The notes under the pieces are model-generated. The model ran no database searches and was not told the origin of the DNA. It worked only from the letters and a program-made list of their open reading frames with translations. From Arthrobacter sp. B6 (lineage in GTDB: Bacteria; Actinomycetota; Actinomycetes; Actinomycetales; Micrococcaceae): a DNA stretch of 64,000 bases. Position 1 is the first letter of the stretch. Every line of letters begins with the position of its first letter. Shown here in pieces: positions 1 through 31,980 of the stretch. The stretch covers positions 1,347,408-1,411,407 of the forward strand of contig NZ_KV467168.1 of assembly GCF_001663775.1 (NCBI RefSeq), written 5' to 3'. Both the position numbers and the translations under genes were made by a program.

Positions 1-836
1 GCGACGTCCACGAAGAGATGCGGCTGGAAGCGACACTGCTCACCGCGCTTGTGACCGCTGGTGCAGGCATGGTCAACAGCACCGTTACGTATGGCAGCCG
101 GAACGAGCTTAAGCATTCGCAGGTGGTAGAGAGCCAGGTGGAACGAGAATAGAATCTTGAGGTGCTCCACTAGAACAGTCCGCGGCATGAACGCCCGGTG
201 CAGCAGCAGTCGCAGCACGTCCTCACCGAGCAGCTCGCCCGACTGGCGACACAGTTGCTTCTGCTCACGACGGGCTGAACTGTCGGGGCGATCCTGTGCC
301 TTGCCCTGGACAGCCTCGACCATGCTGAGCAATGCCTGCGACTCCACGTCAATGTCCGGGCCGGGCGCCGCCTCGCCGGTAACAGGGTCTATATCAGAGA
401 AAAAGAACTCCCGCAAGCCGTTCAGGGCGAGGTCGTTGACCGAGAGTAACTCGTAGAGCTGCTCGTCTGCACCATAGGGACGTGAGCGGGCGGAGTTTCG
501 CAGCCGGTAGGCGAAGCCATGGAGCGGACGCGGCCCGGCCACCGCCTCGGTTGTCCGGCCGCGGTTAACCATATCGAGCAGGTGGGTCTCAACCCAACGG
601 CGGCTGACGTCCTCATTATCTGCGAACCCGTTAAAGCGGCCGAACTTGTCGTCTACCAGCAGCTCCAGGTAGGCGTCGACATCCAGGTCGGTTGCGCGTC
701 GGACCCGGCTGCTGACGCCACCGTGCCACAGCCTCGCAAGGAACGCCGTGAGGACACGGTCCATGGTAAGCGTCTTGTAATCGATACGGCTGATCGCGTC
801 GCATCGAAAGGCGCGGTCCTTACCGTCTAGCGCCAT
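1..836 (-). CDS. Partial gene downstream of the NERD-kinase (C-terminus outside window)
   Basis: An uninterrupted minus-strand frame starts at the ATG at 836 and runs off the left edge, giving 278 codons without a stop. The start overlaps the stop of the kinase gene by 10 bp, so the two are translationally coupled. The visible protein begins MALDGKDRAFRCD, is soluble, rich in Arg, Leu and acidic residues, and has no membrane segment or signal peptide. Cysteines occur near residue 189 and again near the edge (HACTSGHKRGEQC), which could be part of a metal site. I do not recognise the family. Its place directly after an HsdM-HsdS-kinase operon makes it a core component of that defence system; by position it could correspond to the gene after the kinase in MADS, but this is inference. 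Confidence 0.75.
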   Translation of the reverse strand, partial: MALDGKDRAFRCDAISRIDYKTLTMDRVLTAFLARLWHGGVSSRVRRATDLDVDAYLELLVDDKFGRFNGFADNEDVSRRWVETHLLDMVNRGRTTEAVAGPRPLHGFAYRLRNSARSRPYGADEQLYELLSVNDLALNGLREFFFSDIDPVTGEAAPGPDIDVESQALLSMVEAVQGKAQDRPDSSARREQKQLCRQSGELLGEDVLRLLLHRAFMPRTVLVEHLKILFSFHLALYHLRMLKLVPAAIRNGAVDHACTSGHKRGEQCRFQPHLFVDV

Positions 837-5053: not shown

Positions 5054-6468
5054 TAGGCCGACGCCCCCTCAATCGCATGCGTCAGCAAAGCCAGCGCTTG
5101 ATTCTCTAGCACATCAGCGTGGTCACGGTCTCTGTACGCTTGGCGGATTCTCTCGGAAATGCGCGTACGGTCAGCTTTCGGAGCCAACGGGATTGGGACC
5201 TTTCGCCGTAGTCCTTCGTGAATGTCCTGCTGTTTACCGCCTGTGCTGAGAGAGCGGAAGACGCGAAATGCAGCATCAGAGCGAAGGAACGCAAACAAGT
5301 AGGCTCCCGAGATCTCTCGAGTACCGCTCACGATACGAAGGAAGTCCTCCGAGTAGGCGTTATCCAGCCAACTTCCTGTGATGAAAGCTGCCCGACAGTA
5401 AACCTCGTTCTCTCCAAGGGTTCCACGAGCGGCCATCAGGATAGTCTCGTCCTCCGCGAACACCTGCGGTGGCAAGGTCCCTGCACTAACCCTTCGCCCT
5501 TCAGGAGTAACCCAAAACGCCTGCCTTTGACCGACGAGCGTCACCCCAAACTCTGCGTCACTGTCGATCCGCTTAAACCGGACACCACGGGACAGCAAAC
5601 CGCCCTCACAGATGTCACCCAGCCTGCGGTGTTCCACGGAAGATAGCTTGGCCACGATCCGGCGGGCTCGAGGTGAGAAGTTGAGTGCTCGAATGGACTG
5701 AGAGCCTAAGTCGGTAACTTGGAAGCCAAGGTCACGTTCCTGGTCGTGCCAGCGCTGGTCTATCAGCTCGGGCAGTCCGACACTTTGGAAGAAATCATCG
5801 GTGGCAGCGACGAGGGCCGCCTGGGAAGCGGCTCGTAATCGGGCGGCCCCCTCCACCAGGTCGTGAATCTTCTGCTCCAGCCTAGAATCGAACCGGGGCA
5901 CTGGCAGATCCACTAGATGGTTCGGCTCGATGTGCTGAATGATCCCGCCGTAGGCCGAGGCTACGATCATCGGCACGCCGAAGCGGCTGCGGAGGAAGGT
6001 ATATAGGTAACCCGGCGCAATCCGGTGAGGGTTGGCTTGCACCTTCATGACGTCCTGTGAGGACCAGAAGCTGGCCATGTCAGGCCGTACATAGCTCATT
6101 CGCCCGATGGTTCCCGAGCAAGAAATAAGGGACATTCCCGGCTCGACTTTAAGGTAACGTAACCGGTCGGCTGTCTCCCTTCGCAACCTAGGGAGGAAGC
6201 TGAAATCAGCTTCCAGCATGTCCGTGCTGCCGAGGAACGGCACGCTATGCTCGGGATCAGTCAGGTAGGTGCGGATGAACTTCGGTCCATTGTAAATCCC
6301 GCCGTTGTGTCCCGCGGTGACACTATCGAGTCGCATTGTGTTCGGAAGCGCTTGAAGGCGCTTCCGCGCCTCTATCGCACCCGAGAGGTACGGACTCGCA
6401 TCGAGGCGGAGGCCTTGCTCGAAGAACCAGTCAGCTCGAACCGGGTTCTCTATGCTGGCGATCTTCAT
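5053..6468 (-). CDS. hsdS: Type I restriction-modification specificity subunit (HsdS-like)
   Basis: The 471-residue product has the two-repeat plan of HsdS. Each half has a target-recognition domain followed by a helical spacer. The first unit ends with LPVPRFDSRLEQKIHDLVEG near residues 190-210 and a helix rich in Ala and Arg. The second ends with VPIPLAPKADRTRISERI near the C-terminus. HsdS proteins choose the DNA sequence methylated by the HsdM partner, which is encoded immediately upstream with an ATGA overlap. No HsdR restriction subunit follows; the next gene is instead the NERD-kinase fusion. This argues that methylation marks self while the kinase/ATPase module acts on unmarked DNA, as proposed for MADS-like systems. 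The target sequence cannot be read from the protein. Confidence 0.88.
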   Translation of the reverse strand: MKIASIENPVRADWFFEQGLRLDASPYLSGAIEARKRLQALPNTMRLDSVTAGHNGGIYNGPKFIRTYLTDPEHSVPFLGSTDMLEADFSFLPRLRRETADRLRYLKVEPGMSLISCSGTIGRMSYVRPDMASFWSSQDVMKVQANPHRIAPGYLYTFLRSRFGVPMIVASAYGGIIQHIEPNHLVDLPVPRFDSRLEQKIHDLVEGAARLRAASQAALVAATDDFFQSVGLPELIDQRWHDQERDLGFQVTDLGSQSIRALNFSPRARRIVAKLSSVEHRRLGDICEGGLLSRGVRFKRIDSDAEFGVTLVGQRQAFWVTPEGRRVSAGTLPPQVFAEDETILMAARGTLGENEVYCRAAFITGSWLDNAYSEDFLRIVSGTREISGAYLFAFLRSDAAFRVFRSLSTGGKQQDIHEGLRRKVPIPLAPKADRTRISERIRQAYRDRDHADVLENQALALLTHAIEGASA

Positions 6469-8636
6469 GCTTCAGCCCTGCCGACGTCACGAGAGTCGAA
6501 GCCAGGTATGGGATGCCTCGCACGGAACTCCCAGTACTTCTGAGCAATTACCGGCAAGTCATTGTCGATAACAGGACGACTACGTTTGACTGTGCGGGTA
6601 CGACGGGTACCGCCGATGGTAATGTACTCGGTCTCTTCGAACGATTCGGTGATGACATCACCGTTAGGAGCACGCTTGTAAAGTTCGTTGCCGCGCCGGT
6701 CAAAGCCCACCTTTTCTGCAACAGCCATGAACACCGGGTAAGACACCTCGCCGTTGAGCTTGGCATTGATCTTCTCGTCGAGCGTTTTGCGCTTGAGAAA
6801 GAGCAATGTCGTCAAAATGTTGACGTCCGCTTCAACAATGAAAGTTTCAACAGGCAATTCGACGCTGGCAAGAACCCAGCACTCCTGCAGGATGAACTGG
6901 CGAATGCCTTCGTCAGCCGGGCCGGGGTTCGACAGAATGCCATTAGGCAGGACAATACCGAGTCGCCCACCGGGTTTAACCCACTCGATTGCCCGCTGAA
7001 CGAAGAGCTGCTCGGGCGCCATGGAGCTGGGCAGGTTTGGGCTGGCCACCAATTTACCGGTCTTCCTATCGCGCGACCACGATCGGGCGACACCCTCGCG
7101 AAAGTTCGCGAGTACTGACTCGTCGTTGACCGGAATGTCCGCGCCGAAGGGTGGGTTAGTAAGAAGCACGTCGACGACGCCATCGCGACGATCCTTGGCC
7201 AACGGAATGGATGTGCTTGCTCCAGCGACGCCCTGCAGATGCCCCTTCGGGAAGGCAAGGGAATCCATGTGAAAGACGCGGCCGGGAGTATCGGCGAGCG
7301 TCATGATGTTCATCGCAGTGGCTCGCACGAGAGATGGATCAAAGTCGGCGCCAAAGAGGTGTCCATCAGCGTACTTGCGCAGGCGGTCGCGGTAGCGCTC
7401 GGCCTGCTCTGGGGAATCCGGAAGGCCGCGGCTGCCGTCTTCATCCTGCATTTTGTGGTGCAAATGTGTCAGGGTGGCATGCAAGAAGCCCCCTGTGCCG
7501 CAGGTCGGATCGAGGACGGTTTCGTCCTCCTGCGGGTCTAGGATGTCGATCATCAATTTCACGGCGCCGCGAGGAGTAAAGTATTGACCTCGGTCTCCGC
7601 GCAGGTTTGTGCCGACGAGCTCTTGATACGCCAGCCCCTTGGCGTCGATGTCGGTCAGACCGAGGTCGTAGGGGGCCAACTCGGAAACGATAAAGGCAAG
7701 TGCTCTGTCCGACAGGGTGATCTCGTCATTACCTCGGAAGAGCCCGGAATCGGCGTACCGATTCTTTACGTCCTCGAAAAGATCGAGGATCCGCTGCCGA
7801 ATTGCCCTGCGGCCATCATCGTCGTACGGCTCGCTCATAGAGGCGTAGAAGCGACGAGAGCTGCCGTTGCGAACGGCCCGCTCGTCGTACATTTTCGCGA
7901 AGAGCAGGTAAAGGAACTGCCAAAACGCCGCGTCCTTAGCCATGCCCTCGTTTCCGTGGACATAGTTGTGGCAGCGCCGGAACGTGATCTTGAGCATCTC
8001 CGGTTCGGCGCGACGAAGCTGCTGAGCGGAAACTACCTGACCGCTGCCCAAGGTCCCGTCAGACAAGGGCCAGTCAGATCGCTCATGAAACTCTGCACCC
8101 CAACGGTTCGTCTCCTTCTCAACGAAGAAGAAGTCCACGTTGTCGGTCCAGAGGCCCCACGCACGCTCGGGGTAGTCCTCGTCGCCAAGCAAGTCCTGAA
8201 CGAAGGCCATCTCGGACTTCATCTGGTCGTAAGTGCGCAGCTTAATGACATTCTTGCCGCGCTTGGGCTCCCTGTTAGTCACCACCACGCGGCGCAAGCT
8301 GTCCGCTGTGTGCTCGCTGCCAGAGGCGAAAATTGCAATGTCAATCTTCTTGCGGCGCTTCCCATTCTCCGTATTGACCTGGACCACAAAGTCAAGTTCC
8401 ATGTCCTCTGGAGCGAACTGATACTCGTGAAACAGCACACGCACTATTCGCTGTCGGACCTGCTCTTTTGGGGTGTCCTTGATCGGCCTATCGGTAAGGA
8501 AGTCGACGAGGTAGCCCTCGTCGAGATAGTGGACCTGCTTGTCAGCCTCCCCGCTCGGCTGGGCTGCATCATCCTGAGTCGTCGGGTCAACCATGTCGGT
8601 TGAGCTCACCATCACATTCTCTTCTGCGGTCGTCAA
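6465..8636 (-). CDS. hsdM: N6-adenine DNA methyltransferase (HsdM-like) with N-terminal HsdR_N-like domain
   Basis: This is a 723-residue SAM-dependent DNA methyltransferase of the type I (HsdM/N6_Mtase) family. Residues about 35-200 resemble the N-terminal domain of type I restriction enzymes (KKIDIAIF near 96-103, a PD-(D/E)xK-like strand). The methylase core carries the HsdM signature GQYFTPR near 350-356, SAM motif I DPTCGTGG at 376-383 and catalytic motif IV NPPF at 494-497. It is longer than a typical 500-residue HsdM because of the N-terminal extension. It is the first gene of the overlapping operon methyltransferase-HsdS-kinase-unknown, starting 209 bp downstream of the helicase gene on the same strand. 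Those 209 bp may hold the operon promoter; I could not identify one with confidence. Confidence 0.9.
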   Translation of the reverse strand: MTTAEENVMVSSTDMVDPTTQDDAAQPSGEADKQVHYLDEGYLVDFLTDRPIKDTPKEQVRQRIVRVLFHEYQFAPEDMELDFVVQVNTENGKRRKKIDIAIFASGSEHTADSLRRVVVTNREPKRGKNVIKLRTYDQMKSEMAFVQDLLGDEDYPERAWGLWTDNVDFFFVEKETNRWGAEFHERSDWPLSDGTLGSGQVVSAQQLRRAEPEMLKITFRRCHNYVHGNEGMAKDAAFWQFLYLLFAKMYDERAVRNGSSRRFYASMSEPYDDDGRRAIRQRILDLFEDVKNRYADSGLFRGNDEITLSDRALAFIVSELAPYDLGLTDIDAKGLAYQELVGTNLRGDRGQYFTPRGAVKLMIDILDPQEDETVLDPTCGTGGFLHATLTHLHHKMQDEDGSRGLPDSPEQAERYRDRLRKYADGHLFGADFDPSLVRATAMNIMTLADTPGRVFHMDSLAFPKGHLQGVAGASTSIPLAKDRRDGVVDVLLTNPPFGADIPVNDESVLANFREGVARSWSRDRKTGKLVASPNLPSSMAPEQLFVQRAIEWVKPGGRLGIVLPNGILSNPGPADEGIRQFILQECWVLASVELPVETFIVEADVNILTTLLFLKRKTLDEKINAKLNGEVSYPVFMAVAEKVGFDRRGNELYKRAPNGDVITESFEETEYITIGGTRRTRTVKRSRPVIDNDLPVIAQKYWEFRARHPIPGFDSRDVGRAEA

Positions 8637-8845: not shown

Positions 8846-11800
8846 CTAATGGGCAACCGCCGCGGCGTCCGCGTAGACATCAGCTGGCATAGGCCGGTGC
8901 AGCTTCCAGGTTATGGCAATGGGCTTCTGGCCTGAATGCTGAACATAGTCCACCTGCCCCAGGCACGTGTAGGGAACTGTCAGCCCGGTCTCGTCATCCG
9001 CCGTGTCCCTTGTGAAGATCAGAACTCGCGAGCCGTGGGAGGCTCGGTCAAGGTAGCGCCGTCCCGTCGGGCTGGATGGCGAGGTCGCGTTCTGCGACTC
9101 CCAGTTAAACAGTTCCGGGCTGATGGCGTAGTCCTTATACATCGTGGTTGCCGAGTGCTTCTTGTCATCCTTGTTCAAGGTGACAAAGAAGGCGTCCGTC
9201 GAAGTCGCAGGACACCATGCAACGCCCTCTCGGTGCTGCACGTTCTTGCCCTGCTCGAGCGAGCCGTACTGAAGCGCCGCGAGAACCTCCTCGCGCCGGT
9301 AGGTAGCGTGCGAGAGCAGCGGGACATGCTGCAGCCCCGTACCGAGGCTCTTAGCCGCATGCTTTGATGCCGCCAACCCCAGCTTCACGACCTGGCGGAT
9401 CTCGCGGCACACAAACTGGTAGCCGCGCAGGTGGTCCAGACCGTCGTCGTACGTTCTGAATCCGCCGCCGTCATCCCACAGCGTGTAAAAAAGCATGCGT
9501 GCAAAAGCTTGCTCGCGCATGCCCAGCTCAGCGTAACGGGGTGCGTCGGGAGCAACCAGCATCGAATAGGCTGCAGCGCGTTCCGGATCGTCCACATGAA
9601 TGAGCGCGGCCATACGGCCCAGCAGCTTCTTCTCCTCCGCGTCCGACAGCTCCTCAATTTTCCCGCGGAGCACAGTCTCCAGGGGCGAGAACCCGTCAAT
9701 CAACCCTGCCTGCCGGAGGTAACCGGTCCACGAGTCCCGGGTGGACCGGTAGATCGTCTTCACGTCGTTCCCCGACCGCTCCAGATAGGCCTCGAGCTCG
9801 GTCTCGGCGTACGAGGCAATATCCCGGACCAGCTGCGCCCGGTTGAACCGGAGCTGAGCCTTAATGTTGTCCAGCACCACCTTCTGAGCGACGCGGTCCA
9901 ACACGATCTGCGAGCCGGACGGCAGATACGGGAACTCGTCCTCGGCAGCCTTCTCCAGCTCCTTGCGCCCGTAGCCGGTCAGTGCCCGGTAGCGCAGATC
10001 AAAGCGGAACTCCCGGCGCTGCTGGCCAATGAAGTCCAGGACCGTCAGTACCGCTTTGCCCTCGGCACGGCGCAGACCGCGTCCCAGCTGCTGGAGGAAG
10101 ACCGTGGCACTCTGCGTGGGCCGGAGCAGCAGGATGGTGTCCACCTGCGGCAGGTCCAGTCCTTCATTGAAGAGGTCGACGGCGAATATGCAGTTGATCT
10201 CCCGCTCACCCAGGCGTCGCAGGGCCTCCTCGCGGTCGACATCGTCAGTGCTGCCGTCGACGGCAACCGAGGCAATGCCGGCACGGTTGAACACCTGAGC
10301 CATGTATTGGGCATGCTGGACCGAGACGCAGAAGCCGATGGCCCGCATCTGAGCTGTGCTGGCGACCTTGTCCCTGAGCTCGCGGATTACCTTTGCGGCG
10401 CGGGCATCGTTTCCGGTGTAGAGGGCGCTCAGCTGTGTGGTGTCGTAGTTACCGCGTTTCCATTCCAATTGGCTCAAGTCAACGTCGTCCGAAACGCCGA
10501 AGTAGTGAAAGGGCACAAGCAGGTCTGCATCCAGCGCGTCCCACAGCCTTAGCTCGCTGGCGGTGCGGCCGTCGAAGAATTGCTTGGCTACATCGACTCC
10601 GTCGCCGCGTTCCGGTGTAGCCGTGAGCCCGAGGAGCTGCTGCGGCTGCAGGTGGTCCAGCAGGCGCCGGTAAGTGGGCGCCATGGCGTGGTGGAACTCA
10701 TCGATGACCACGACGTCGAAGAAGTCCGGTTCCAGCTGCTCGATACCGAGCGAGGACAGTGATTGGACCGAGGCGAAGATGTGCTTCCACTCTTGCGGCC
10801 TGTGCTCCCCCACGTAGAGTTCACCGAAGGCGCCGTCCTGCGTGACGTCGCGGTAGGTGCGCATCGCCTGTTTGAGGATTTCCTGGCGGTGGGCCACGAA
10901 CAGCAGCTTCAGATCGCGGCCGGCAGCTTTGGAAAGCCTTTTGTAATCCAGTGCGGCGATGACTGTTTTCCCGGTGCCGGTGGCCGCCACTAGGAGATTG
11001 TGGTTGAAGCCTTTGAGTCGCTCCGCTTCCAGGTCCTCCAACATCTCCTCCTGATGGAGGAACGGCTGAACGTCGAGACCGGTAGCGGCATCCGGGGCCG
11101 CAGTACGGCGGCCGCCGTTGCGTTCCAGCGCAGCGTCCAGCTTTTCGCCGTCGCGTTCGGGGTCGTAGCTTTGGAAGGCTCGCTGCTCCCAGTAGCTGTC
11201 GAAGGTGATCTCGAACTTCTGCAGAAGTGCCGCGGTGGCGACAGAACTGAGCCGCACGTTCCATTCCAGCCCATCCAGGAGCGCAGCTTGACTCAGATTG
11301 GAGCTGCCCACGTAAGCCGTGTCGAAACCGGTGTTGCGGCGGAACAGCCAGGCTTTGGCGTGCAGCCTTGTGGCCTGGGTTTCATAGCTGATCTTGACTT
11401 CGGCCCCGTACCTGTCGACGAGCTCGTCAAGGGCGCGGCGTTCGGTGGCGCCCATGTAGGTAGTGGTGATGACGCGGATCCTGGCGCCGCGCTCCTTGAG
11501 CCCCTCGAGCGCCGGCTGGAGAAGACGGAGGCCGGTCCAACGGACGAAGGCGCAGAGCAGGTCGACGGTGTTGGCGGACTCCATCTCGGCCCGGATCTCG
11601 GCGGCGAGATTGGGATCGTCCTTACTGTTGGTGAGGAGCGCGGAATCGCTCAGCTTTATGGTGGGGCGACGGAGCCGCCGGCGCTTTAGGGTTTCCGGCC
11701 GGTGGAGTGACTGGAGCTGGCAGGGTCCCTCTGCGATGCGTTCCGTGACGTCCAGTTCCCGAAGGAGGCGGTTGGCCAGGGCCACGCGGTCGACCGGTTT

Positions 11801-12001
11801 GGCTGCGGCCAGGGCTCGGCGGACAGCACCCGCGACGTGGCGGCAGAGGACATCGGGTGTGTCCTCCTCATCAACAATCTCGAAGACTGGTTGGAGATCC
11901 GAAAGCCGTTCAACATCTGAAACGAGGTCATCGGTGTTGAGAAGCTCGTATAAACCCTCGGGCAGCTGATTGGCTCCCTCTCCCCCAATAAAGTCGGTCA
12001 C
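8846..12001 (-). CDS. PLD-nuclease/DEAD-like superfamily 2 helicase with DUF3427-like C-terminus
   Basis: The 1051-residue protein joins a phospholipase-D-type nuclease domain to an SF2 helicase. The PLD half (about 110-270) has a single HxK motif, HAK at 214-216, followed by GSSNLSQAALLDG, so it probably dimerises to form its active site. The helicase core has Walker A ATGTGKT (340-346), DEFH (434-437), the LGLTATPERGDG motif III, and a helicase-C half ending in QQLGRGLRRAEGK. The final 300 residues match the DUF3427 arrangement found behind such helicases. Family members occur alone or in defence islands and act like single-chain restriction or DNA-processing enzymes. It is 209 bp upstream of the methyltransferase operon on the same strand and may supply its restriction activity, but no overlap couples them. 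Confidence 0.87.
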   Translation of the reverse strand: MTDFIGGEGANQLPEGLYELLNTDDLVSDVERLSDLQPVFEIVDEEDTPDVLCRHVAGAVRRALAAAKPVDRVALANRLLRELDVTERIAEGPCQLQSLHRPETLKRRRLRRPTIKLSDSALLTNSKDDPNLAAEIRAEMESANTVDLLCAFVRWTGLRLLQPALEGLKERGARIRVITTTYMGATERRALDELVDRYGAEVKISYETQATRLHAKAWLFRRNTGFDTAYVGSSNLSQAALLDGLEWNVRLSSVATAALLQKFEITFDSYWEQRAFQSYDPERDGEKLDAALERNGGRRTAAPDAATGLDVQPFLHQEEMLEDLEAERLKGFNHNLLVAATGTGKTVIAALDYKRLSKAAGRDLKLLFVAHRQEILKQAMRTYRDVTQDGAFGELYVGEHRPQEWKHIFASVQSLSSLGIEQLEPDFFDVVVIDEFHHAMAPTYRRLLDHLQPQQLLGLTATPERGDGVDVAKQFFDGRTASELRLWDALDADLLVPFHYFGVSDDVDLSQLEWKRGNYDTTQLSALYTGNDARAAKVIRELRDKVASTAQMRAIGFCVSVQHAQYMAQVFNRAGIASVAVDGSTDDVDREEALRRLGEREINCIFAVDLFNEGLDLPQVDTILLLRPTQSATVFLQQLGRGLRRAEGKAVLTVLDFIGQQRREFRFDLRYRALTGYGRKELEKAAEDEFPYLPSGSQIVLDRVAQKVVLDNIKAQLRFNRAQLVRDIASYAETELEAYLERSGNDVKTIYRSTRDSWTGYLRQAGLIDGFSPLETVLRGKIEELSDAEEKKLLGRMAALIHVDDPERAAAYSMLVAPDAPRYAELGMREQAFARMLFYTLWDDGGGFRTYDDGLDHLRGYQFVCREIRQVVKLGLAASKHAAKSLGTGLQHVPLLSHATYRREEVLAALQYGSLEQGKNVQHREGVAWCPATSTDAFFVTLNKDDKKHSATTMYKDYAISPELFNWESQNATSPSSPTGRRYLDRASHGSRVLIFTRDTADDETGLTVPYTCLGQVDYVQHSGQKPIAITWKLHRPMPADVYADAAAVAH

Positions 12002-12327: not shown

Positions 12328-13443
12328 CTAGCCACTATAAGCATGACTAAAAACATCTAAGGCGACTGAAACGAGAGCATTGCATAAGGGATTCCAGTTG
12401 ATTGCGGTTATATCCAGCGATTCTTCCGAGGGCCGGTAGTGAACAATTTGGTTTCGGAGTTTATAGATCGCCCGTCCAGCTAAGACGTCCAGTTCATCCA
12501 TCGCTTCCAATTCACTCAAGCGAGTAATTTCTTTAGAATCGTCCGGATCCGCCTTAGGCCCAGACTCGAGCCAACGACAGATCTTTGCAAGATCCGCACG
12601 GTTAGCTTGCTTTAGAGCGACGTTGAGGCTGCTAGCCTCCTGCGGATGCCACCCAATTTTGCTTTCCAAAACTGCTGCAATCTCATGCCAAGGAAGTTCC
12701 AGGGCTAGCGCTGTTCCCAATTTTGAACTGGTGTCGTAAGCATAAGTGGCTTCAATGCATCGATACAAAGACATAAATAGACTTCTAGGATCAAGATCGA
12801 ACACAGATCGACACAATTCAGCGTAGGGAAGAGAAGGCACGTTCAGATCGGCGAGGGTCGAGAGCGAGGCAGCAAGTTCATCATCGATCCATGAACTACC
12901 TAGCCTGCATTCGTCCACACTCAAACGCAAGAACGTCGGCCAAACAGTTGTGTTATCCAGTGGGCTTTCACTTCTCAATGCCTTCACCGTTGGGAATAGC
13001 GAAGCCACCTGGGAGTGGTCATGGCCTTCATAACCCGGGTCGCCCATTGCTCCAACTTCAACAACGTTGCGCACGACCCCCGTTGGGACATTTGGTTGGA
13101 TTCCGAGTTCGGAGATCAAGGAGACAGTAAGCCCCGAGTTTACCTCTATCAACGGGAGCTCCGGATAATCCGGATCATACTCGAAACCGACTAATCCTAT
13201 GTAGTGAGGGCCGTCCTCGCCGAGTTCCAGCCACGTAAGATAGCGGTGCCGGCCGAAGCCGAGGAAGGATAGGACCGAAATGTACTTGAGCCATTCTTTC
13301 TCAGTCTTGTTACTCTGAACCCATCGCGGAAAGGATGTATCGCTAATAGGATCGTTTCGCTTCTCACAATACGTCGCCAAGATCGTGAACAAGGATGCAT
13401 TTGCATCCCTCATGCTTCTACTCACTAGCTTGCCCGCCAGCAT
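12328..13443 (-). CDS. Probable HEPN-domain protein (candidate RNase effector)
   Basis: This 371-residue protein has an unrecognised N-terminal half and an all-helical C-terminal third. Near the C-terminus it carries KLRNQIVHYRP, with R330 and H335 forming the R-x4-H motif of HEPN ribonucleases. The context (a helix starting LFMSLYRCIEATYAY near 217, then a hydrophobic last helix) is like the ApeA/Swt1-type HEPN group. HEPN proteins often act as RNA-cutting toxins in abortive infection and toxin-antitoxin pairs. Its start overlaps the end of the DGQHR-like gene by 19 bp, so the two are co-translated. The DNA is clearly AT-richer than the 16-64 kb region, a sign of horizontal transfer. The HEPN call rests on the motif and helical pattern, not on a database match. 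Confidence 0.62.
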   Translation of the reverse strand: MLAGKLVSRSMRDANASLFTILATYCEKRNDPISDTSFPRWVQSNKTEKEWLKYISVLSFLGFGRHRYLTWLELGEDGPHYIGLVGFEYDPDYPELPLIEVNSGLTVSLISELGIQPNVPTGVVRNVVEVGAMGDPGYEGHDHSQVASLFPTVKALRSESPLDNTTVWPTFLRLSVDECRLGSSWIDDELAASLSTLADLNVPSLPYAELCRSVFDLDPRSLFMSLYRCIEATYAYDTSSKLGTALALELPWHEIAAVLESKIGWHPQEASSLNVALKQANRADLAKICRWLESGPKADPDDSKEITRLSELEAMDELDVLAGRAIYKLRNQIVHYRPSEESLDITAINWNPLCNALVSVALDVFSHAYSG

Positions 13444-14576
13444 TGCTCCATATTTTCAAGGTCAAATTCCTCTTCAACCAAGACCTTGAACGCTTCCGAG
13501 AAAACTGACCGCTCGTATCTACCGACCTGGCCGACCTTTTTGTCGAGCACTTCCCTAAGAACGTCTAAACGAAGAAAGTCCTCTAACTGCTCGTTACTCA
13601 TGCCATGCAACCTGAAGACCAAACGCTGCTGTGCTGCTTCTAGTTCTTCCATACGCGCCATCCGCTGCGTTCTCGAACGGTCGGCACCAGGCCGGCCCAA
13701 TACGGAACTTCCGAGTGCGACAATGAGACCAATCCGAGCCGGCTGTCTGTCAAAGATGAATCTTCCGGAGGGAGACCCATCTTCCCCGAGGTATTTACCG
13801 AAGGCGACGTCCAAGCGAGCAAGCATCGACAGGGCCGTGTAGAAGTGGTCCTGAAATGACTCATCTGCGAGGTTATCTACAAAGTCAAGCCGCGAGAATT
13901 CATCAGAAATGGCTTCTTTGGTGTCAACGGCTGTCTTTCGGAGCGAAAATGCAATATAGAGTTCAACCAAGTCGTCACTCGAGTATTGAGCGGGGGCCAC
14001 GCGACGCCCAGGATTGTCAGGAGAAGTGACTTTATCAAGGTCTTCTACGTTCCGCTTGATCTCATCAAGCAACGGTGCAAAAACTACAGAGAGTTGTCGG
14101 CTAATTGTCCAAGGAACCTGAGACGTGTTGAGCACGAGCATCCGGTAAATCATTGCGCGAACGCTGTTTGTTAGCCAGAACTCAACGCGCACTCCTCTTG
14201 TTCCGACTTCGACATGGTCAGAAAGCGCTTCTTTCAAAGCTGCAGTTCGCTGCATTCCATCAATAATCGAAAGCGATCCATGGGCAGTCGGCAGAAATTC
14301 GTTAATACCTACCGCTTCCAACTTGGGCAGCGCGTCAAATAGGTTTTTCTCCAACACGGCGCCGATCACTATAGGTGGCAGAACAGCGCCCTTTTTCAGA
14401 TCTTCGACCATTCTGGAGCGTATTCTCTTGGCCGTCGTGGTAGTCAGGACTCCCCGTTGCCCCTTCAAGGCTCCCTGAGCCGCGTGAGCATCATCAACCA
14501 GCGAGATATAGTCCGCGACAGGCAAAGTCGTTAAAACCGACCAGCACTGACTTCTATCGTCGTAAAGCCAATCCAT
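13425..14576 (-). CDS. DGQHR/ParB-like domain protein, partner of the HEPN protein
   Basis: The 383-residue product contains SIIDGMQRTAAL near residues 103-114, close to the DGQHR signature (DGQHRxxA) of DndB/DptB-like and ParB-related proteins. It is followed by LVLNTSQVPWTISRQL, similar to the N-rich segment after the signature in that fold. In these families the fold binds nucleotide or DNA, and several members regulate defence loci. The C-terminal half is helical and acidic (EEEFDLENMEQ). It is the first gene of a two-gene unit with the HEPN-like gene and overlaps it by 19 bp, so it may control, sense for, or neutralise the HEPN partner. Its DNA is AT-richer than its neighbours to the right. 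The fold assignment is moderately supported; the exact role is unknown. Confidence 0.6.
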   Translation of the reverse strand: MDWLYDDRSQCWSVLTTLPVADYISLVDDAHAAQGALKGQRGVLTTTTAKRIRSRMVEDLKKGAVLPPIVIGAVLEKNLFDALPKLEAVGINEFLPTAHGSLSIIDGMQRTAALKEALSDHVEVGTRGVRVEFWLTNSVRAMIYRMLVLNTSQVPWTISRQLSVVFAPLLDEIKRNVEDLDKVTSPDNPGRRVAPAQYSSDDLVELYIAFSLRKTAVDTKEAISDEFSRLDFVDNLADESFQDHFYTALSMLARLDVAFGKYLGEDGSPSGRFIFDRQPARIGLIVALGSSVLGRPGADRSRTQRMARMEELEAAQQRLVFRLHGMSNEQLEDFLRLDVLREVLDKKVGQVGRYERSVFSEAFKVLVEEEFDLENMEQCWRAS

Positions 14577-14713
14577 AGTTGTTCCCCATCAGTAAAAACT
14601 TTTGCAGTTGGTCAACCCAGGCACGAGACCCAAACTTTGTCCTAAGCGGTTCAAACTCAAAATCTTAGTTGCTCCGCCAGTTCCTCTCGAATCTACAGAA
14701 GATGAGTGGGCTC

Positions 14714-15127
14714 GGCGTTGCTGTCCAGCCGGGAGAGCAGGTAGGCGCCGATTACCGGGACCACCACGTAGGACACCGGGTTCAGCTGCTGCCCGGCCCG
14801 GCGCTGACGCACAAAGTGGAACACCACCGAAGCGTTCACCAAAGTGAAGGCGGTGAAGGCACAAAGTTGATGAACGACGTCGACGTGGCCACGTCCAGGA
14901 AGATGGCAATCAGGCCCACAGTGCCGGTGATGACCAGGTTCGCCCACCGGGGTGTGGAACTTCTCGCTGAGCCGGCCGAAGACAGCCTTGGGAAGCACGG
15001 AGTCGCGGCTCATCGCGTACAGCAGGCGGGAGGCGCTGGCCTGCGCGGCGAGGCCGGAGGCGAACTGCGCCACCACCAGGCCGGCCAGGAACACGGCGCC
15101 GAACACCTGCCCGCCGATCTGCAGGAC
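14714..15127 (-). pseudogene. Fragment of an APC-family permease gene
   Basis: This stretch closely matches about 420 bp inside the intact permease gene at 17319-18668 (its bases about 17450-17871), on the same strand. Several small insertions and deletions break the frame, for example a 9-bp gap after GGTAGGCG and single-base changes around the CACAAAGTTGATG and CGCCCACCGG positions. Both ends are truncated: the left end abuts AT-rich island sequence, and the right end switches at CTGCAGG into the degraded methyltransferase copy. It cannot encode a transporter and is best read as a recombination scar. Confidence 0.8.
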
Positions 15128-15130
15128 GAC

Positions 15131-16485
15131 TATCGGCGAACAAGCCGCCACAGCGACGTGACCTCGGCCGAACGCGCCTCGAACAGAGGATCGTCGCGGT
15201 CCGATGCCTTCGGATGCGTAGGCCTGGTGTCCAGCCGTTCCGCCACCTTCAGCCCGGCGGCCCCGATGGCGCCCAGCAGATCGTCACGCGTCCGCAGGCC
15301 AAGGTGCTCGGGCAGGTCGGAGAGGACAAGCCACCCCTCACCGTCTTGTTCTAGATGGTCGGGGAGTTCATTCAGGAAGCGGAACAGCATCCTGCTCCCG
15401 GGGTCGTAGACGGCGCTGTCCAGGGTGGAATGCGGCGTGGCCGGAATCCAGGGCGGGTTGCACACGACGAGCGGTGCCCGCCCGGGCGGGAACATGTCGG
15501 CCAGGACGGCCACAGCTCGGTCCTGGACCCCGAGGTTCCGGAAATTCTCAGCGGCGCAGGCGATCGCACGCGGTTCATTGTCCGTCGCCTCCACGCGGCG
15601 GACGCCACGGCGCGCGAGGACGGCGGGCGAGCACCCCGGTACCGGTTCCAACGTCGAACGCCAGCGTGTCAGAGGGCAGCGCAGCGGCGGCCACGAGATC
15701 CACATACTCACTGCGGGTGGGGAAGAACGTGCCATAGTGCGGGTGGATGCGGCCTTGCAGGGCATCGACGTAGACGCCATTGCGTCGCCACTCGTGGGCG
15801 CCAATTGCCCCGACAAGCTCATGCAGGGACACGATGGAAGATTCGCCGACATCACCGTACGCTTCAGCAGCGGCCTCCCGGATATCCGGTGCGCGGCGCA
15901 ACGGCACCACCGGGCCCGGATCAAGGGGAATCAGCAGCAGCCCGAGAATGCGTGCTCGATGCGAGCAGGACTGGCGATGCCGATAGAACCTTTCGGCCGG
16001 AGTTCCTGCGGTCTCTTTCTTTCCGGCGCCTATCCGCCGGTCCAGGGCGTTGAGGATCTGCCGCCCGTTGTGGAAGTCACCGTGCCAGAGCATCGCGATC
16101 CCCTGCGACGCCATCCGGTACGCCTCATTGGCCGTGAGAGAGTCGGAGACCACTTCGACGCGCGTCGGCGCCGGTCTGCCGCCGAACGCCACCGCGCGGT
16201 CATGCTGACACCGGCCTCGGCCCAGGAAACGAGGGCACGCTCAATCACCGCAGCTGTGCGCGAGGCCTTGGGGTCCGGCGTCGGAATTCCCACGGGAGCT
16301 GGCATGTCGGTACTGATAAGGATCCATTCCAAGAGTCCGCGGGCGGATCGGAGACTGACGGTTGCGGCGGCGATTCCACGACGTCCAAGGCTACGGCCCA
16401 AGATTCCAGACCGTCATCCGGCAGCGAACGGAGCTTCTTGATCGATGGCGGCTGGAGCCCTTGAACCAAATTGTCAGGATACAGG
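15131..16485 (-). pseudogene. Degraded second copy of the SAM methyltransferase at 31981-33186
   Basis: The sequence runs parallel to 31982-33335 from the stop region through the whole gene and about 150 bp of 5' leader. Two frameshifts are visible against the intact copy: one extra base near 15630 (CGGCGGGCGAGC against CGGCAGCGAGC) and a 4-bp loss near 16182 (CTGCCGCCGAAC against CTGCCGTTCGCCGAAC). Segments still read as the SAM-binding and NPPW-containing core, but in different frames. Homology ends at TTGTCAGGATACAGG (16471-16485), five bases before the stop codon of the nitrilase gene, so the junction is sharp. It forms a direct repeat with the intact gene, the two flanking about 15.5 kb. 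Confidence 0.85.
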
Positions 16486-16489
16486 GGTG

Positions 16490-17296
16490 CTACAACCTCC
16501 GCTGCCGGAACATCGGGAACGACTCCCGCACCCGGTCCACGGTCTCCAGTGAAACCTCCACCGACCGAACACCGGGCGTCAGCCCAAGGTCAGCCTCAAC
16601 AACCCCCATCGGATCCACCAGCACGCTCCGCCCCACCGACACCGGCGGCGCCTGGCACACCCCGGCCACGTACACGCTGTTCTCAATGGCCCGAGCCGTG
16701 TTCAGCGCCAGCCACTGTTCCGTCTTGTGCTCGCCCGGCACCCAGGATGAGCAGACCAGCAGGACCTGCGCGCCGGCGTCGGCCAGTGACCTGGCCAGCT
16801 CCGGGAACCGAAGGTCGTAGCAGGTCATCAGCCCGAACCGCACTCCCCCGTGCTCGAACACCGCGGGGTCGGTGGACGGTCCGGGCTTGATGAACTGAGA
16901 TTCCCCGTAGCCCTGCGCGTCGAAAAGGTGGATCTTCCGGTAGGAAGCCAGCCGGCCGCCGTCGGGCCCGTAAGCCACCAGCGTGTTGTAGGCCTTGCCC
17001 GGCTCCTCCGAGGCCTCCACCACGCCCGCCACCAGGGCGATGCCGCGGCGGCGGGCGGTCTCGGCGAGCTCCCGGCAGACTGGACCGTCCAGCGGCTCGG
17101 CCATCGCAGGGAACGTCGCGTCCACCGTCTTCTTCTCGTAGGTGGCGTACTCCGGGAAGGCGACCAGCCCGGCGCCGGCGCGCGCCGCCTCCGCGGCGAA
17201 CCGGTCGATCGCGGCGAGGTTGGCGTGGATGTCGGTGCCCGACTCCAGCTGCCCGAGCGCTATCCTCACGGCTGCTCCTTCCCTTACATTACGCAT
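16490..17296 (-). CDS. Carbon-nitrogen hydrolase (nitrilase superfamily)
   Basis: This 268-residue protein has the Glu-Lys-Cys triad of the nitrilase superfamily: E in FPEYATYEKK (about 48), K in SYRKIHLFD and C in LMTCYDLRFPELAR. Length is normal for a short carbon-nitrogen hydrolase that cleaves amides such as omega-amides or carbamoyl compounds in the cytoplasm. It is the last gene of a three-gene minus-strand unit, 22 bp after the permease, with a second nitrilase at the head. Together these suggest import and hydrolysis of an amide- or nitrile-containing nitrogen source. The substrate cannot be named from sequence. Confidence 0.88.
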   Translation of the reverse strand: MRNVREGAAVRIALGQLESGTDIHANLAAIDRFAAEAARAGAGLVAFPEYATYEKKTVDATFPAMAEPLDGPVCRELAETARRRGIALVAGVVEASEEPGKAYNTLVAYGPDGGRLASYRKIHLFDAQGYGESQFIKPGPSTDPAVFEHGGVRFGLMTCYDLRFPELARSLADAGAQVLLVCSSWVPGEHKTEQWLALNTARAIENSVYVAGVCQAPPVSVGRSVLVDPMGVVEADLGLTPGVRSVEVSLETVDRVRESFPMFRQRRL

Positions 17297-17318: not shown

Positions 17319-18668
17319 TCAGGCGGCGGCCTCCACCGTCGCCTTTTCGGTGGCCGTCATCTCCGGCGGCGCCGCCTTGAAACCGCGGGTGATCAGGGCC
17401 AGGACAATCACGCCCAGCACCAGCCAGGACACTCCCAGCGTAATGGCGTTGCTGTCCAGCCGGGAGAGCAGGTAGGCGCAGATGAGGGCGCCGATCACCG
17501 GGACCACCACGTAGGACACCGGGTTGAGCTGGTGCCCGGCCCGGCGCTGGCGTACGTAGTGGAAGACTACCGAGGCGTTCACCAGCGTGAAGGCGGTGAA
17601 GGCACCGAAGTTGATGAACGACGTCGAGGTGGCCACGTCCAGGAAGATCGCGATCAGGCCCACGATGCCCGTGATGACCAGGTTCGCCACCGGCGTGTGG
17701 AACTTCTCGCTGAGCCGGCCGAAGACCGCCTTGGGCAGGACCGAGTCGCGGCCCATCGCGTACAGCAGGCGGGACGCGCTGGCCTGCGCGGCCAGGCCGG
17801 AGGCGAACTGCGCCACCACCAGCCCGGCAAGGAACACCGCGCCGAACAGCTGTCCGCCGATCTGCAGGGCGATGGAGCTGGCCGCGGAGGCCGAGTCCTC
17901 GAACACGCCGCCGGGGTGGACCAGCTGGGTCACGTAGGACACGGCCACGAAGATGCCGCCGCCGATCAGGGCGATGAGCATGATGGCGCGGGGCATGTTC
18001 TTGCGCGGTTCAATGGTCTCCTCGGTGAGGGTGGTGACGGCGTCGAACCCCAGGAACGAGTACGCGGCAATGGCGGCACCGGCGGAGATGGTGGCGAAGC
18101 TGGCGGTGTCGTTGAAGAACGGCTGCGTGCTCGCCAGTCCGCCGGCGCCGGAGGCGGACACCACGTTGCCGATGGACAGCGCCACGAAGAACACGATGAC
18201 CAGCAACTGGAAGGCCATCAGCACGTAGTTGGCCTTGTCCGCCACCTTGATGCCCAGGATGTTCAGGAGCGTGGTGATGAGGATGAAGCCCACGATCCAG
18301 AGCCCGATGGGGATGCCCGGGAACTGCGCGGTCAGGTAGGACCCGCCGATGAGCCAGATGACCATGGGCAGGAAGAGGTAGTCCAGCAGGATGGCCCAGC
18401 CCACCATGAACCCGACCCGGGAATCGATGGACTTGCGGACGTAGGTGTAGGCGGAGCCGGCCACGGGGTAGGCCACGGCCATCCGGCCGTAGCTGTGCGC
18501 GGTGAACAGCATGGCCGCGAGCGCCACGAGGTAGGCGGCGGGCGCTGCGCCGCCGGTGGATTCGGCGATGATGCCGAAGATCCCCAGGACGATCAGCGGA
18601 GTGAGGTATGCCAGGCCGAACAGGACCAGCGAGGGCAGTTTCAGCGTGCGGGTGAGGGTTGTTGTCAC
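17319..18668 (-). CDS. APC-family amino acid/amine permease
   Basis: The 449-residue protein starts MTTTLTRTLKLPSLVLFGLAYLTP and has about 12 hydrophobic segments in the APC superfamily pattern, including GSAYTYVRKSIDSRVGFMVGW near residues 70-90 and SFLGFDAVTTLTEET near 195-209. APC permeases bring amino acids or amines into the cell by proton symport or exchange. It sits 9 bp after one nitrilase and 22 bp before the other, so it is the likely importer for their substrate or an exporter of a product. A fragment of a near-identical gene lies at 14714-15127. Control by the divergent GntR-type regulator is inferred from the shared intergenic region upstream of the operon. Confidence 0.9.
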   Translation of the reverse strand: MTTTLTRTLKLPSLVLFGLAYLTPLIVLGIFGIIAESTGGAAPAAYLVALAAMLFTAHSYGRMAVAYPVAGSAYTYVRKSIDSRVGFMVGWAILLDYLFLPMVIWLIGGSYLTAQFPGIPIGLWIVGFILITTLLNILGIKVADKANYVLMAFQLLVIVFFVALSIGNVVSASGAGGLASTQPFFNDTASFATISAGAAIAAYSFLGFDAVTTLTEETIEPRKNMPRAIMLIALIGGGIFVAVSYVTQLVHPGGVFEDSASAASSIALQIGGQLFGAVFLAGLVVAQFASGLAAQASASRLLYAMGRDSVLPKAVFGRLSEKFHTPVANLVITGIVGLIAIFLDVATSTSFINFGAFTAFTLVNASVVFHYVRQRRAGHQLNPVSYVVVPVIGALICAYLLSRLDSNAITLGVSWLVLGVIVLALITRGFKAAPPEMTATEKATVEAAA

Positions 18669-18677
18669 GGTGTTTCC

Positions 18678-19556
18678 TTAAGGCTTGTAGGACGGCGGTG
18701 TCCAGGTGGCCGGATTAATCCGGCCTTGGTAGACGGAAAGTTCGACGGCGGCCTCCCCCTCGCGGAACTGCGACCAGGGGCGGTTGAGGTTCTCCGTGCC
18801 GTGCGTGCGGACGCGGTCGATGGCGGCAAGGTCCAGTTCCGCTGTGAGCAGCTGCGAGGCGTCGTCGGGGGCCTCGGCGAGGGTGTTGCCCTCCGGGTCC
18901 ACGATGATGCTTTGGCCTTTGCCGGTGGGGCCGGCACAGTTGACGCTGACCACAAAGACCTGGTTGACGATGGCGTTGGCCTTGGCGAGGATCAGTTCCT
19001 GTTTGCGGTCCGGCGTGGTGGTTTTGACGACGTTGATGATTACCTCGGCGCCCATCCAGGCGAGCTGGCGGGACACCTCCGGGTACCAGGCGTCGTAGCA
19101 GATGTTCAGTCCCACCCTGCCGATGCCGGGCAGGTCCACGATAGTGAACTTGTCGCCGGGATCGTAGGGCTCGAACGGGCGCCAGGGGAAGATCTTCCGG
19201 TAGTAGCCGGCAAGCTCCCCCTCCGGGGACAGGATCAGCTGGGTGTTGAACAGCTGGCCCTCCGGGCCGCGCTCGCACACGCTGCCCGGGACAAGCCAGA
19301 TGTTGAGGTCTTTCGCGAGCTGTATGAGCCCTTTGACTCTTGGGCCGTCTAGGGGTTCGGCACTTTCTTGGAGCATTTCGATGCGCTGCAGGTCCGGGTT
19401 CTCATCTCCGAAGAGGTGCAGCTCGGGGAAGACGACCAGTTTGGTGTGCGGCTGGGCCTGGAGGGCTTCTTTGACCTCGTCCGCGAAGGCCGAGACGGGT
19501 TCGCCGATGAGCCGGGGCCGGGCCTGGGCAGCGATGAGGGGAAGGGTCCGTTGCAT
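18678..19556 (-). CDS. Carbon-nitrogen hydrolase (nitrilase superfamily), operon head
   Basis: The 292-residue product has the nitrilase triad: E in VFPELHLFGDE (about 44), K in GYYRKIFPWRPFE and C in LNICYDAWYPEVSRQL. The sequence after the cysteine (YDAWYPE) is of the aliphatic amidase/N-carbamoyl hydrolase style. It differs clearly from the second nitrilase of the same operon, so the two are unlikely to be a recent duplication and may act on successive substrates. It is first in a minus-strand operon with the APC permease, and its start faces the GntR gene across a 95-bp region holding a palindromic site. Confidence 0.88.
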   Translation of the reverse strand: MQRTLPLIAAQARPRLIGEPVSAFADEVKEALQAQPHTKLVVFPELHLFGDENPDLQRIEMLQESAEPLDGPRVKGLIQLAKDLNIWLVPGSVCERGPEGQLFNTQLILSPEGELAGYYRKIFPWRPFEPYDPGDKFTIVDLPGIGRVGLNICYDAWYPEVSRQLAWMGAEVIINVVKTTTPDRKQELILAKANAIVNQVFVVSVNCAGPTGKGQSIIVDPEGNTLAEAPDDASQLLTAELDLAAIDRVRTHGTENLNRPWSQFREGEAAVELSVYQGRINPATWTPPSYKP

Positions 19557-19593: not shown

Positions 19594-19612
19594 TTAGATC
19601 AGAATGATCCAA
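19594..19612. promoter_or_regulatory. Candidate GntR operator between nitrilase operon and regulator
   Basis: TTAGATCA and TGATCCAA form an inverted repeat around GAA, matching at seven of eight positions. It lies in the AT-rich middle of the divergent intergenic region, 38 bp before the nitrilase start and 40 bp before the chosen GntR start. FadR-type GntR regulators bind short palindromes of this kind and usually repress both divergent promoters. Binding is inferred. Confidence 0.55.
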
Positions 19613-19651
19613 TTATGGGAAGAGGCAGGTTTGGGCCGTAAAGTAGCGGAT

Positions 19652-20419
19652 ATGACCCGTCAGTTGGAGGACACCGCCGAGCCGTCGCCCATCGGCGCCG
19701 GCAGGCTGGCCGGCATTGACCGCCGCAGTGCCATCGACGCCGTCCGTCTGCGGATCGGCATGGCCATCTCCCTGGGCCTGCTAAAACCCGGCGAGCGACT
19801 GCCCGACCAGGAGGACGTGGCCCTGGGCCTGTCGGTCAGCCCGATCACCGCCCGCCGCGCGCTGGCGAGCCTGGCGGAACAGGGCGTTGTGGTCCGCCGC
19901 CGCGGCCGCGCCGGAGGAACGTTCGTGGCGGATTCGCCACCTACGGATGTTTTGGCGGAACTCTCGGCGTCACCGGCGGAGTCCCAGGCCGTGAACCGCC
20001 TGGTGGACCGGCGGCTTCTGTTCGAGTGCGCAGTGACCCATTATGCGGCGATCAACGCCACTGCCGAACAGCTGGATGAGCTGGAGCGGCTGACCCGGGA
20101 CATGGCCGAGTCCTCCGACTGGTCCGACTACCACCGGGGGGACGAGCAGTTCCACCAGCTGGTGGGCACCGCCTCAGGCCTGGGCACCGCCGTCGAGGTT
20201 TACCACGAGGCGCTGGCCGACCTCTATGCCTACTTCATCCCCTACCCCATCGAGCTGCTGCACAAGTCGAACTGCGACCACGTGGCGCTGGTGGCGGCCC
20301 TGCGCGCGGGCAACGGGTCCGAAGCCGTGGAGATCGCCCGCAAGCACGTGGACATCCTGCACCGGACGATGTTTATGGGGCTTGCGGACGGCAGAGCTGA
20401 AGCCGGTGCACATGGCTGA
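19652..20419 (+). CDS. GntR-family transcriptional regulator (FCD type)
   Basis: The 255-residue protein has an N-terminal winged helix (about 20-85, with LKPGERLPDQEDVALGLSVS and ARRALASLAEQGVVVRRRGR). A C-terminal all-helical FCD ligand-binding domain follows, with FECAVTHYAA near 125 and HRGDEQFHQLV near 160. FCD domains sense small organic acids or amino acids, often through a metal held by Asp/His residues. I chose the ATG at 19652 because an in-frame ATG at 19604 would start inside the palindromic operator. It is divergent from the nitrilase-permease operon and is its likely regulator. Confidence 0.87.
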   Translation: MTRQLEDTAEPSPIGAGRLAGIDRRSAIDAVRLRIGMAISLGLLKPGERLPDQEDVALGLSVSPITARRALASLAEQGVVVRRRGRAGGTFVADSPPTDVLAELSASPAESQAVNRLVDRRLLFECAVTHYAAINATAEQLDELERLTRDMAESSDWSDYHRGDEQFHQLVGTASGLGTAVEVYHEALADLYAYFIPYPIELLHKSNCDHVALVAALRAGNGSEAVEIARKHVDILHRTMFMGLADGRAEAGAHG

Positions 20420-20523
20420 ATGAGTAGGTTATGGCCCCAAACACCTCGGCGTCGGATTGCTAATTCGCTACGCTACGCCGCGCCTTGTATTGCAGAGCTC
20501 ACGCGGTAGGGCAGGATGTCCAC

Positions 20524-23352: not shown

Positions 23353-23466
23353 ACCAATCGGCCGAGGCAGGTTCTGGTACTTCGCCCCGCGTATTCCGTG
23401 CGTGTTTCTAAGCCTCCCAAGAAGAGCTCTCGCAGGCCCCGTTACGAGCACGTGCGAGCCCTAGTT

Positions 23467-23860
23467 GTACTAACCCGCCACGTTGGTGACGCGGCTGGCA
23501 GGTGAGGCGCCTTTGAGTGCGGTGTGGGGCCTGCGCTGATTGTAGTGCTCGATGAAGCCCTAGTAACAGGCCTGGCCTTCACTTTCTCAGCTGTGGCGCT
23601 GACGTAGGCCCATTCCTCCAGGAGGATGCGGTTGAAGCGTTCGATGCTCTTGCCGTTGGTTTGTGGACGATAGGGTCTGGTGCGTTTGTGGCTGATGCCG
23701 GCTTCGGCGAGGACTTCCGCGAAAGGGCGGGAACGGTAGCAGGCGCCGTTGCCGGTCAGGACGCGCTGGATTTTCACGCCGTAGACAGGAGACGCTCTCA
23801 GGCGAGTTTCAAACTTGCTTTTCGATCCTGTCGCCCGCCACATGAGCCATGATGCCGCTT
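23467..23860 (-). mobile_element. IS481/IS3-type transposase remnant
   Basis: Reading the minus strand gives TGNGACYRSRPFAEVLAEAGI, KRTRPYRPQTNGKSIERFNR and ILLEEWAYV, the second-Asp and Glu parts of a DDE integrase core. The end, IEHYNQRRPHTALKGASPASRVTNVAG, is in a different frame. The N-terminal half with the first catalytic Asp is missing and no terminal inverted repeats were found. It is a dead fragment marking past transposition near the right side of the accessory region. Confidence 0.75.
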
Positions 23861-24074
23861 TTGGCACCACTTCTGAAAATGCATTACCTGGAGCGGCCAC
23901 TGCCGGTACCGAGCCCAGCTCAGAGCACGGTCGCCGCCGTCGGCGTTGACCCGCCCGGAGGAGCTGACCTTGATCCGCCTAGGGCTCTGGATCGGGGCCG
24001 CTCCCGCGCCTATATTTGCTTAATATCCGGTTGCACGTCCGGAGCAACCGGCCCGACGTGTCTAGGAGGACATT

Positions 24075-31835: not shown

Positions 31836-31980
31836 ATCAGCCGATGACGGTCACCTGTCTGTTGGCGACCACGGCCGGTCCCGCCGTAATCACACGAGCC
31901 GGTAACGGCAACGAAGCCAGAAGGGACACCACTGGGCAGGTGACCGCCCCCGTCGTACTCCGCCGCTCGCAGATTTGCGG

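Follow-up and report, generated by a model that had tools for sequence, protein, structure and literature searches.

Among described defence loci, cDHS1 and cDHS2 of Pseudomonas aeruginosa are close to the locus characterized here. cDHS1 measures 1-224 kb with a median of 26 kb and, according to the accessible part of the report, spread of these loci via transduction and homologous recombination at the flanks has been suggested (PMC10250203). For hotspots without mobile elements, turnover via homologous recombination at the flanking genes was proposed by Oliveira et al. in 2017, as far as the available part of that paper states (PMC5635113). In pneumococcus, transformation with partly repeated DNA yields merodiploids, described in the accessible sections of the study as tandem direct duplications with hybrid joints (PMC3784515).

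Here, we analysed a locus of Arthrobacter sp. B6 within a stretch of 64,000 nucleotides (the window, to which positions refer unless another stretch or contig is named). Positions 14577-16489, called the scar in the following, had been interpreted in a first-pass annotation as two truncated duplicate genes at the right boundary of a mobile island. The locus is an Arthrobacter/Pseudarthrobacter defence hotspot. Our best reading is that the scar is not the edge of a discrete mobile island, and with a probability of roughly 70% we consider it debris left in a hypervariable defence locus by repeated rounds of recombination with the corresponding locus of relatives. Among the open-licence Arthrobacter papers listed for islands, restriction-modification, hypervariable regions, duplication and phage defence, no title or abstract opening points to this locus.

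Composition of the scar

The scar, the conserved genes next to it and the resident methyltransferase gene comprise the following features:

14577..14713, no strand: edge of the cargo, upstream of the Dazbog-like gene; AT-rich, G+C 0.47
14714..15129, minus strand: perm', the decayed remnant of an internal to C-terminal segment of perm1, an APC amino-acid permease gene
15119..15133, no strand: joint between perm' and MT', consisting of CTGCAGG (15119-15125) and a few bases after it, at the edge formed by the methyltransferase stop codon
15133..16489, minus strand: MT', a full-length copy of an MTS-domain methyltransferase gene with two frameshifts
15133..15465, minus strand: near-identical patch in MT', an apparent conversion tract, 98% identical to the resident methyltransferase gene
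16490..17296, minus strand: nit1, carbon-nitrogen hydrolase; its stop codon is the limit of conserved sequence
17319..18668, minus strand: perm1, intact APC permease
18678..19556, minus strand: nit2, carbon-nitrogen hydrolase
19604..20419, plus strand: gntR, a GntR/FCD regulator; its 3' end is the other limit of the conserved block
31981..33186, minus strand: resident methyltransferase gene with MTS domain, 401 codons; homology in relatives mostly continues to about 33338-33369

Alignment with both resident genes showed that the mosaic is genuine, with the permease piece followed by the methyltransferase copy and then by the nit1 stop codon, and BLAST E values of 0 and 5.9e-160 for the scar against the two genes exclude chance. 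perm' corresponds to 416 of the 1350 bp of the permease gene and aligns to 17445-17872 of perm1 with 92% identity over 415 aligned bases, one 12-base gap and two 1-base indels, in good agreement with the earlier match to about 17450-17871. Its individual segments in the repeat comparison (D3, D5 and D7) are 90-93% identical to perm1. Methyltransferase homology starts at about 15127-15133, bearing out the switch that had been placed at CTGCAGG, and extends to 16489; its counterpart, 31978-33339, covers the whole resident methyltransferase gene plus 5' flank. The copy is indeed frameshifted, with one base inserted at 15625 and four bases lost near 16179, and its longest stop-free run is 266 codons compared with 402 in the resident gene and 358-454 in relatives. 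Base 16490 opens the complement of the nit1 stop codon (16490-16492), which reduces the gap between MT' and this codon, previously given as five bases, to 0-1 bases. Further, G+C rises from 0.47-0.51 in 14577-14713 and the Dazbog-like genes to 0.66 inside the scar, confirming the described shift out of AT-rich DNA at the left; 14577-14713 itself has no DNA match in the genus sample.

The description as two truncated genes applies to perm' only, since MT' is full length and reaches from near the start codon to the stop codon. In the loci of 21 relatives, methyltransferase homology begins near the stop codon (31962-31990) and its other end lies mostly at 33338-33369, within 30 bases of the scar edge, with one exception (G102, 33239). 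Because these limits coincide with those of MT', the latter was probably a complete gene at the time of joining.

The same locus across the genus

The cargo left of the scar carries the following genes:

13425..14576, minus strand: Dazbog DzbA-like gene (PADLOC, E 2.5e-44)
12328..13443, minus strand: probable Dazbog partner, DzbB by position only; no family match
8846..12001, minus strand: type IV restriction enzyme, helicase plus PLD
6465..8636, minus strand: MAD2 DNA methyltransferase of the MADS defence system (971.9 bits, NCBIfam cut-off 720)
5053..6468, minus strand: MAD5-like specificity subunit (PADLOC)
827..5053, minus strand: MAD6-like kinase (PADLOC)

To the left of the window follow mad7 and mad8 (PADLOC), a CHAT-domain gene and then kinase and nucleoside hydrolase genes. 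MADS-type genes extend over 827-8636 and L023:11175-18244 (stretches L023 and L024 represent about 35 kb left of the window), and the match of the mad8-like gene of 1812 codons is limited to its last fifth. mad3 and mad4 were not seen among the scanned ORFs and the MADS set is incomplete as far as seen; for mad1, there is one weak match outside the cargo (20485-21246, PADLOC, E 0.0004). The CHAT-domain gene (L023:6161-8626, G+C 0.51) is situated between the left anchor and the MADS genes and has no PADLOC match; it is possibly a further defence gene. About 170 bases past the outer mad8 end, there is a 78% direct copy of left-flank genes (L023 10177-11008 vs 3812-4652), and an 85% tandem copy is found farther left (L023 5474-6022 vs 4906-5458). 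Both are degenerate and contain the left-flank kinase/acetyltransferase and adjoining DNA. The cargo is flanked at both ends by decayed direct copies of flank genes.

To compare this arrangement with that of relatives, 198 genomes were searched, including the own genome, with two candidates scored per genome. By our own count, 62 of the 197 other genomes match the nit1-perm1-nit2-gntR block over 3000 bases or more. The left anchor, made up of nucleoside hydrolase and kinase genes, gave some match in 197 of 198 genomes, although many of these matches are partial or weak. Parts of the scar were matched in 135 of 198 genomes. Forty stretches reaching 20 kb left of nit1 were then taken from the 62 long-block genomes, mostly by rank and contig room. 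Relatives of the type IV restriction enzyme (76-89%) are present left of nit1 in 13 of these 40 congeneric stretches. For the Dazbog-like genes (G+C 0.508), the other 197 genomes yielded no DNA relative and, apart from matches to perm', only matches of about 30 bases, so part of the cargo comes from outside the sample.

The locus varies strongly in size. The interval from left anchor to nit1 measures 14.3-125.2 kb in 29 relatives (median 45.8 kb) compared with 28.6 kb in the own genome, counted where the matches listed include a long left-anchor match and a nit1 match on one contig; six genomes with only the outer 0.5 kb of the anchor listed (G006, G021, G059, G063, G075 and G115) are outside this set, and G141, G149 and G182, each with two anchor pieces, were measured from the nearer one. 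Comparison with related genomes for an empty site, as had been recommended, yielded no clean one, the smallest interval being the 14.3 kb of G028. The sequence adjoining nit1 also varies. Grouping the 500 bases beyond nit1 of 41 genomes gave 37 classes, or 36 if G102 and G105, which are 91% alike up to 61 bases from nit1, are merged. Within these 500 bases, other window sequence was matched in 9 of 40 relatives: the second permease in four, and the methyltransferase gene, perm1, a lipid-kinase-like gene, the 53-54 kb gene and the IS481 remnant in one each. Five of 40 relatives carry the 53-54 kb gene (53238-54530, 430 codons) left of nit1, one of them partially; this gene has neither a Pfam nor an NCBIfam match. 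The IS481 remnant is what is left of a transposase gene at 23442-23900, beside an AT-richer stretch (20.5-24 kb). Elsewhere in the window, an inverted repeat of 322 bases (43355-43676 / 54590-54911, 74% complementary, 10.9 kb between the arms) is adjoined by a second pair (43102-43199 / 55064-55161).

Pieces of window genes, defined as at least 80 bases and less than 70% of a gene, were found left of nit1 in 15 of the 40 genomes. All 33 pieces are direct, although a few may be genes cut by the stretch end and eight derive from one ORF of doubtful call, without which 25 pieces in 13 genomes remain. No gene piece was present in the other 25 stretches. As a control, 20 stretches at 2.0 Mb contained three pieces in one genome, at 67-68% identity and with one inverted. 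Internal repeats within the 40 stretches numbered 24 direct and 0 inverted, in 13 genomes, and a looser threshold added one 77-base inverted pair (G017). Among the 20 genomes with a control, eight carry internal repeats at the hotspot (16, all direct) and none in the control. Not all of these repeats are flank-gene copies, as exemplified by a 99.9% identical tandem pair in G167. The orientation evidence carries the caveat that a few old events as ancestors would also keep pieces direct. A clear case of stacked block copies is given by G037 (L054:10011-20000), where three successive direct nit1 copies are found, of which one is incomplete and one precedes a cut permease gene. Gene order also varies: in 20 relatives, the methyltransferase gene is located right of perm1 in 14, left in five and on both sides in one (one copy being a fragment), always on the same strand, as read by eye for genomes with both genes on one contig within 100 kb and a methyltransferase match of at least 1 kb, a rule that leaves out G192 (genes 1 Mb apart) and shorter methyltransferase matches such as that of G032.

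We further determined how much of the variable DNA is related to defence. Of the 329 ORFs in the stretches left of nit1 from the 40 relatives, a random sample of 103 matched 161 PADLOC models at E 1e-25 or better, among them type I restriction, Dnd, Pbe, mad2 and DRT. The control, 118 sampled of 216 ORFs, matched four models (mad3 in three proteins and three RtcR-type regulator models in one protein each). Sampled ORFs were 250-1500 aa long, and as models overlap, these numbers are not counts of systems.

No match listed for the 197 other genomes spans the perm'/MT' joint, and the exact joint sequence was not found in the genome-contig collection searched, from which the own genome may be missing. 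The first-pass annotation had named a mosaic in related strains without an island and without size variation as evidence against its reading; no such strain appeared among these matches and size variation is large.

Descent of the remnants and rival origins

The descent of MT' was analysed using the scar, the resident gene and 26 further rows representing methyltransferase copies of relatives. Across 15133-15465, the segments of scar and resident gene share 99% and 97% identity, and each of the two is 81-95% identical to the remaining rows. Beyond 15465, segment identities between the two drop to 80-95%, which is below the identity of either to its best relatives. A tree of the first 333 columns pairs the two (100/100) next to G049 (81/79), which belongs to the clade of the resident gene in the tree of the second part. 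In this second tree, built from the remaining 1032 columns, the resident gene is placed inside a 13-row clade (97/98) with the scar outside, and forcing the two together is 75.1 log-likelihood units worse (p-AU 0.0004). Most of MT' is thus of other descent than the resident gene, and about 1 kb of it is wrongly termed a duplicate. The cut at 15466 was picked after the identity profile had been seen, whereas a maximum chi-square analysis placed the best single breakpoint at 15710, where 21 of 195 variable sites differ to the left and 105 of 372 to the right, a value as high in 0 of 2000 permutations. With this cut, the left/right divergence ratio of scar and resident gene is 0.27, the second-lowest of 378 row pairs (median of the others 0.70).

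The patch at the left end of MT' seems to have arisen by conversion with the resident gene, with the direction from resident gene to scar weakly favoured. Mismatches between MT' and G102 are distributed 15/9/40 over the three codon positions, and this retained excess at third positions suggests that MT' was functional during most of its separate history. Dating the copies by their divergence, which had been recommended, has no meaning here, given the different line of most of MT' and the seeming conversion of the remainder. In the case of perm', identity is 92% to perm1 and 88-95% to the copies of 35 relatives, and descent from the resident gene gave a p-AU of 0.48, making an old copy of that gene indistinguishable from other origins. 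Duplication within the own genome is rejected for most of MT' (p-AU 0.0004) but not for perm' (p-AU 0.48).

These results bear on the rival that survives best, an internal tandem duplication of the block from nit1 to the methyltransferase gene whose left copy has lost everything except perm' and MT' through one deletion, from within perm1 to the methyltransferase stop codon. The order perm'-MT'-nit1 is the expected product of one such deletion, and the permuted gene orders in relatives, the three nit1 copies of G037 and the p-AU value of perm' all point the same way. We nevertheless regard this origin as unlikely, since MT' past 15466 belongs to a different line from the resident gene and has identities to it as low as those between species. 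Debris of repeated exchange with relatives remains our preferred reading, and the earlier claim of repeated recombination at this site holds on the strength of the mosaic with its 0 of 2000 permutations, the gene pieces in 15 of 40 relatives, the nit1 flank matches in nine of 40 and the range of interval sizes.

Integrases commonly target the 3' ends of genes. An integrative island or ICE inserted at the nit1 3' end via a site-specific recombinase that was later lost would therefore sit at a usual target, and in 40 of 40 relatives examined, the limit of window homology is indeed no more than a few codons away from the nit1 stop. A recurrent fragment start at the nit1 stop seen in the block search was dropped as a breakpoint because the query itself ended there. 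Several results make the ICE scenario improbable. Conserved sequence breaks off likewise at the gntR end of the block, the cargo is bracketed by long degenerate gene pieces, and neither the window nor L023 and L024 contain a tRNA. The longest exact repeat shared by the two 400-base cargo ends, as would be sought for an attachment site, has nine bases, a length reached in 119 of 300 shuffles. The tyrosine recombinase genes of the own genome (C1 554987, 604893 and 812753; C2 413684) are more than 500 kb away at the nearest, and a profile built from these four, which recovers its source genes and would miss distant ones, detected no such gene in any of the 40 stretches, in L023 or in the window. 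Among the matches listed (about half), no tyrosine or serine recombinase lies inside the 40 stretches. In G141, two tyrosine recombinases are located 26-28 kb beyond its stretch, and serine recombinases gave four matches in the own genome, the one listed being at C1 448245. The view of the scar as the right boundary of a mobile island of the usual kind is thus not supported. Searches for a source found no phage match, and the best plasmid match was a 77.5% relative of the permease/hydrolase/regulator block from Arthrobacter sp. ERGS1:01.

An unrecognised process free of integrases might also use the nit1 3' end as a directed insertion point, joining defence DNA exactly at the stop codon. Flank-gene arms would then be carried along and the debris would be a by-product of a dedicated exchange mechanism instead of chance recombination sifted by selection, a scenario to which we give little credence. 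Rearrangement by a transposon or IS element, to which the IS481 remnant and the piece of this sequence adjoining nit1 in G115 could be taken to point, is very improbable: two genes account for the scar, a plasmid search of 12300-34500 gave an IS match only at 23461-23782, and the pieces in relatives are ordinary genes, all direct. An assembly error can practically be dismissed although repeats of 90-98% within 17 kb can mislead assemblers, since a single 3.3-Mb contig contains the region, the genome is 99.99% complete, the copy is far from 100% identity over most of its length and the same kind of debris is present in the separate assemblies of relatives.

Proposed history and comparison with known systems

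The following route of entry and order of events would account for the scar as debris of exchange with relatives. DNA from the same locus of a related species would have been taken in by transformation, conjugation or transduction, with homology guiding the join at one end and an illegitimate join at the other; the own genome, like 10 of 14 control genomes, carries a ComEC gene. Such a pattern is compatible with both the proposal of Oliveira et al. and the pneumococcal duplications. Extra copies of the genes flanking the locus would have come with the import or remained after it, and these may have persisted beside the resident ones in direct orientation, lost their function and been cut by deletions, while being partly overwritten via conversion from the resident gene. 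Two such remnants enclose the defence cargo today, the left-flank copy with its kinase/acetyltransferase piece and perm'-MT'. A single import may have carried both remnants together with the cargo. Conserved sequence would end at the nit1 stop codon because joins within the gene would be selected against, while joins outside would be free.

The exchange of integrase-less defence islands seems to have left readable footprints here, in the form of direct flank-gene copies, one of them mostly of other descent and bearing a near-identical patch, and the locus itself is variable across the genus. Donor, direction and breakpoints could be worked out at such a locus, and direct flank-gene remnants provide a simple signature to seek in other genera.

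Several unrelated defence systems between conserved flanks, along with strong variation in size and content, are features this locus has in common with described hotspots. The resemblance to cDHS1 and cDHS2 includes conserved flanks, many unrelated defence systems, a large size range and the lack of a single mobile-element type, as far as the accessible part of that report goes (PMC10250203). Unlike there, the comparison here is made across species of a genus, with the long nit1-gntR block in 62 of 197 other genomes, and truncated flank-gene copies are present, debris of which the same part of the report makes no mention for cDHS1/cDHS2 (PMC10250203). The variable defence locus of Streptococcus suis is similar in that defence systems differ between strains, and flank-gene debris is not described in the available portion of that paper (PMC5398294). 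With the pneumococcal merodiploids, our locus shares the expectation that imported DNA pairing at an alternative copy would give a direct duplication; the accessible sections of that study describe an experiment with repeats in one species, whereas we rely on decayed remnants (PMC3784515). Finally, the locus resembles the hotspots of Oliveira et al. in its high turnover without recognisable mobile elements. Their evidence, in the available part of the paper, is a statistical recombination signal in flanking core genes (PMC5635113), whereas here recombinant sequence in or next to the flanking genes is visible at a single joint, through the other descent of one gene and its near-identical patch.
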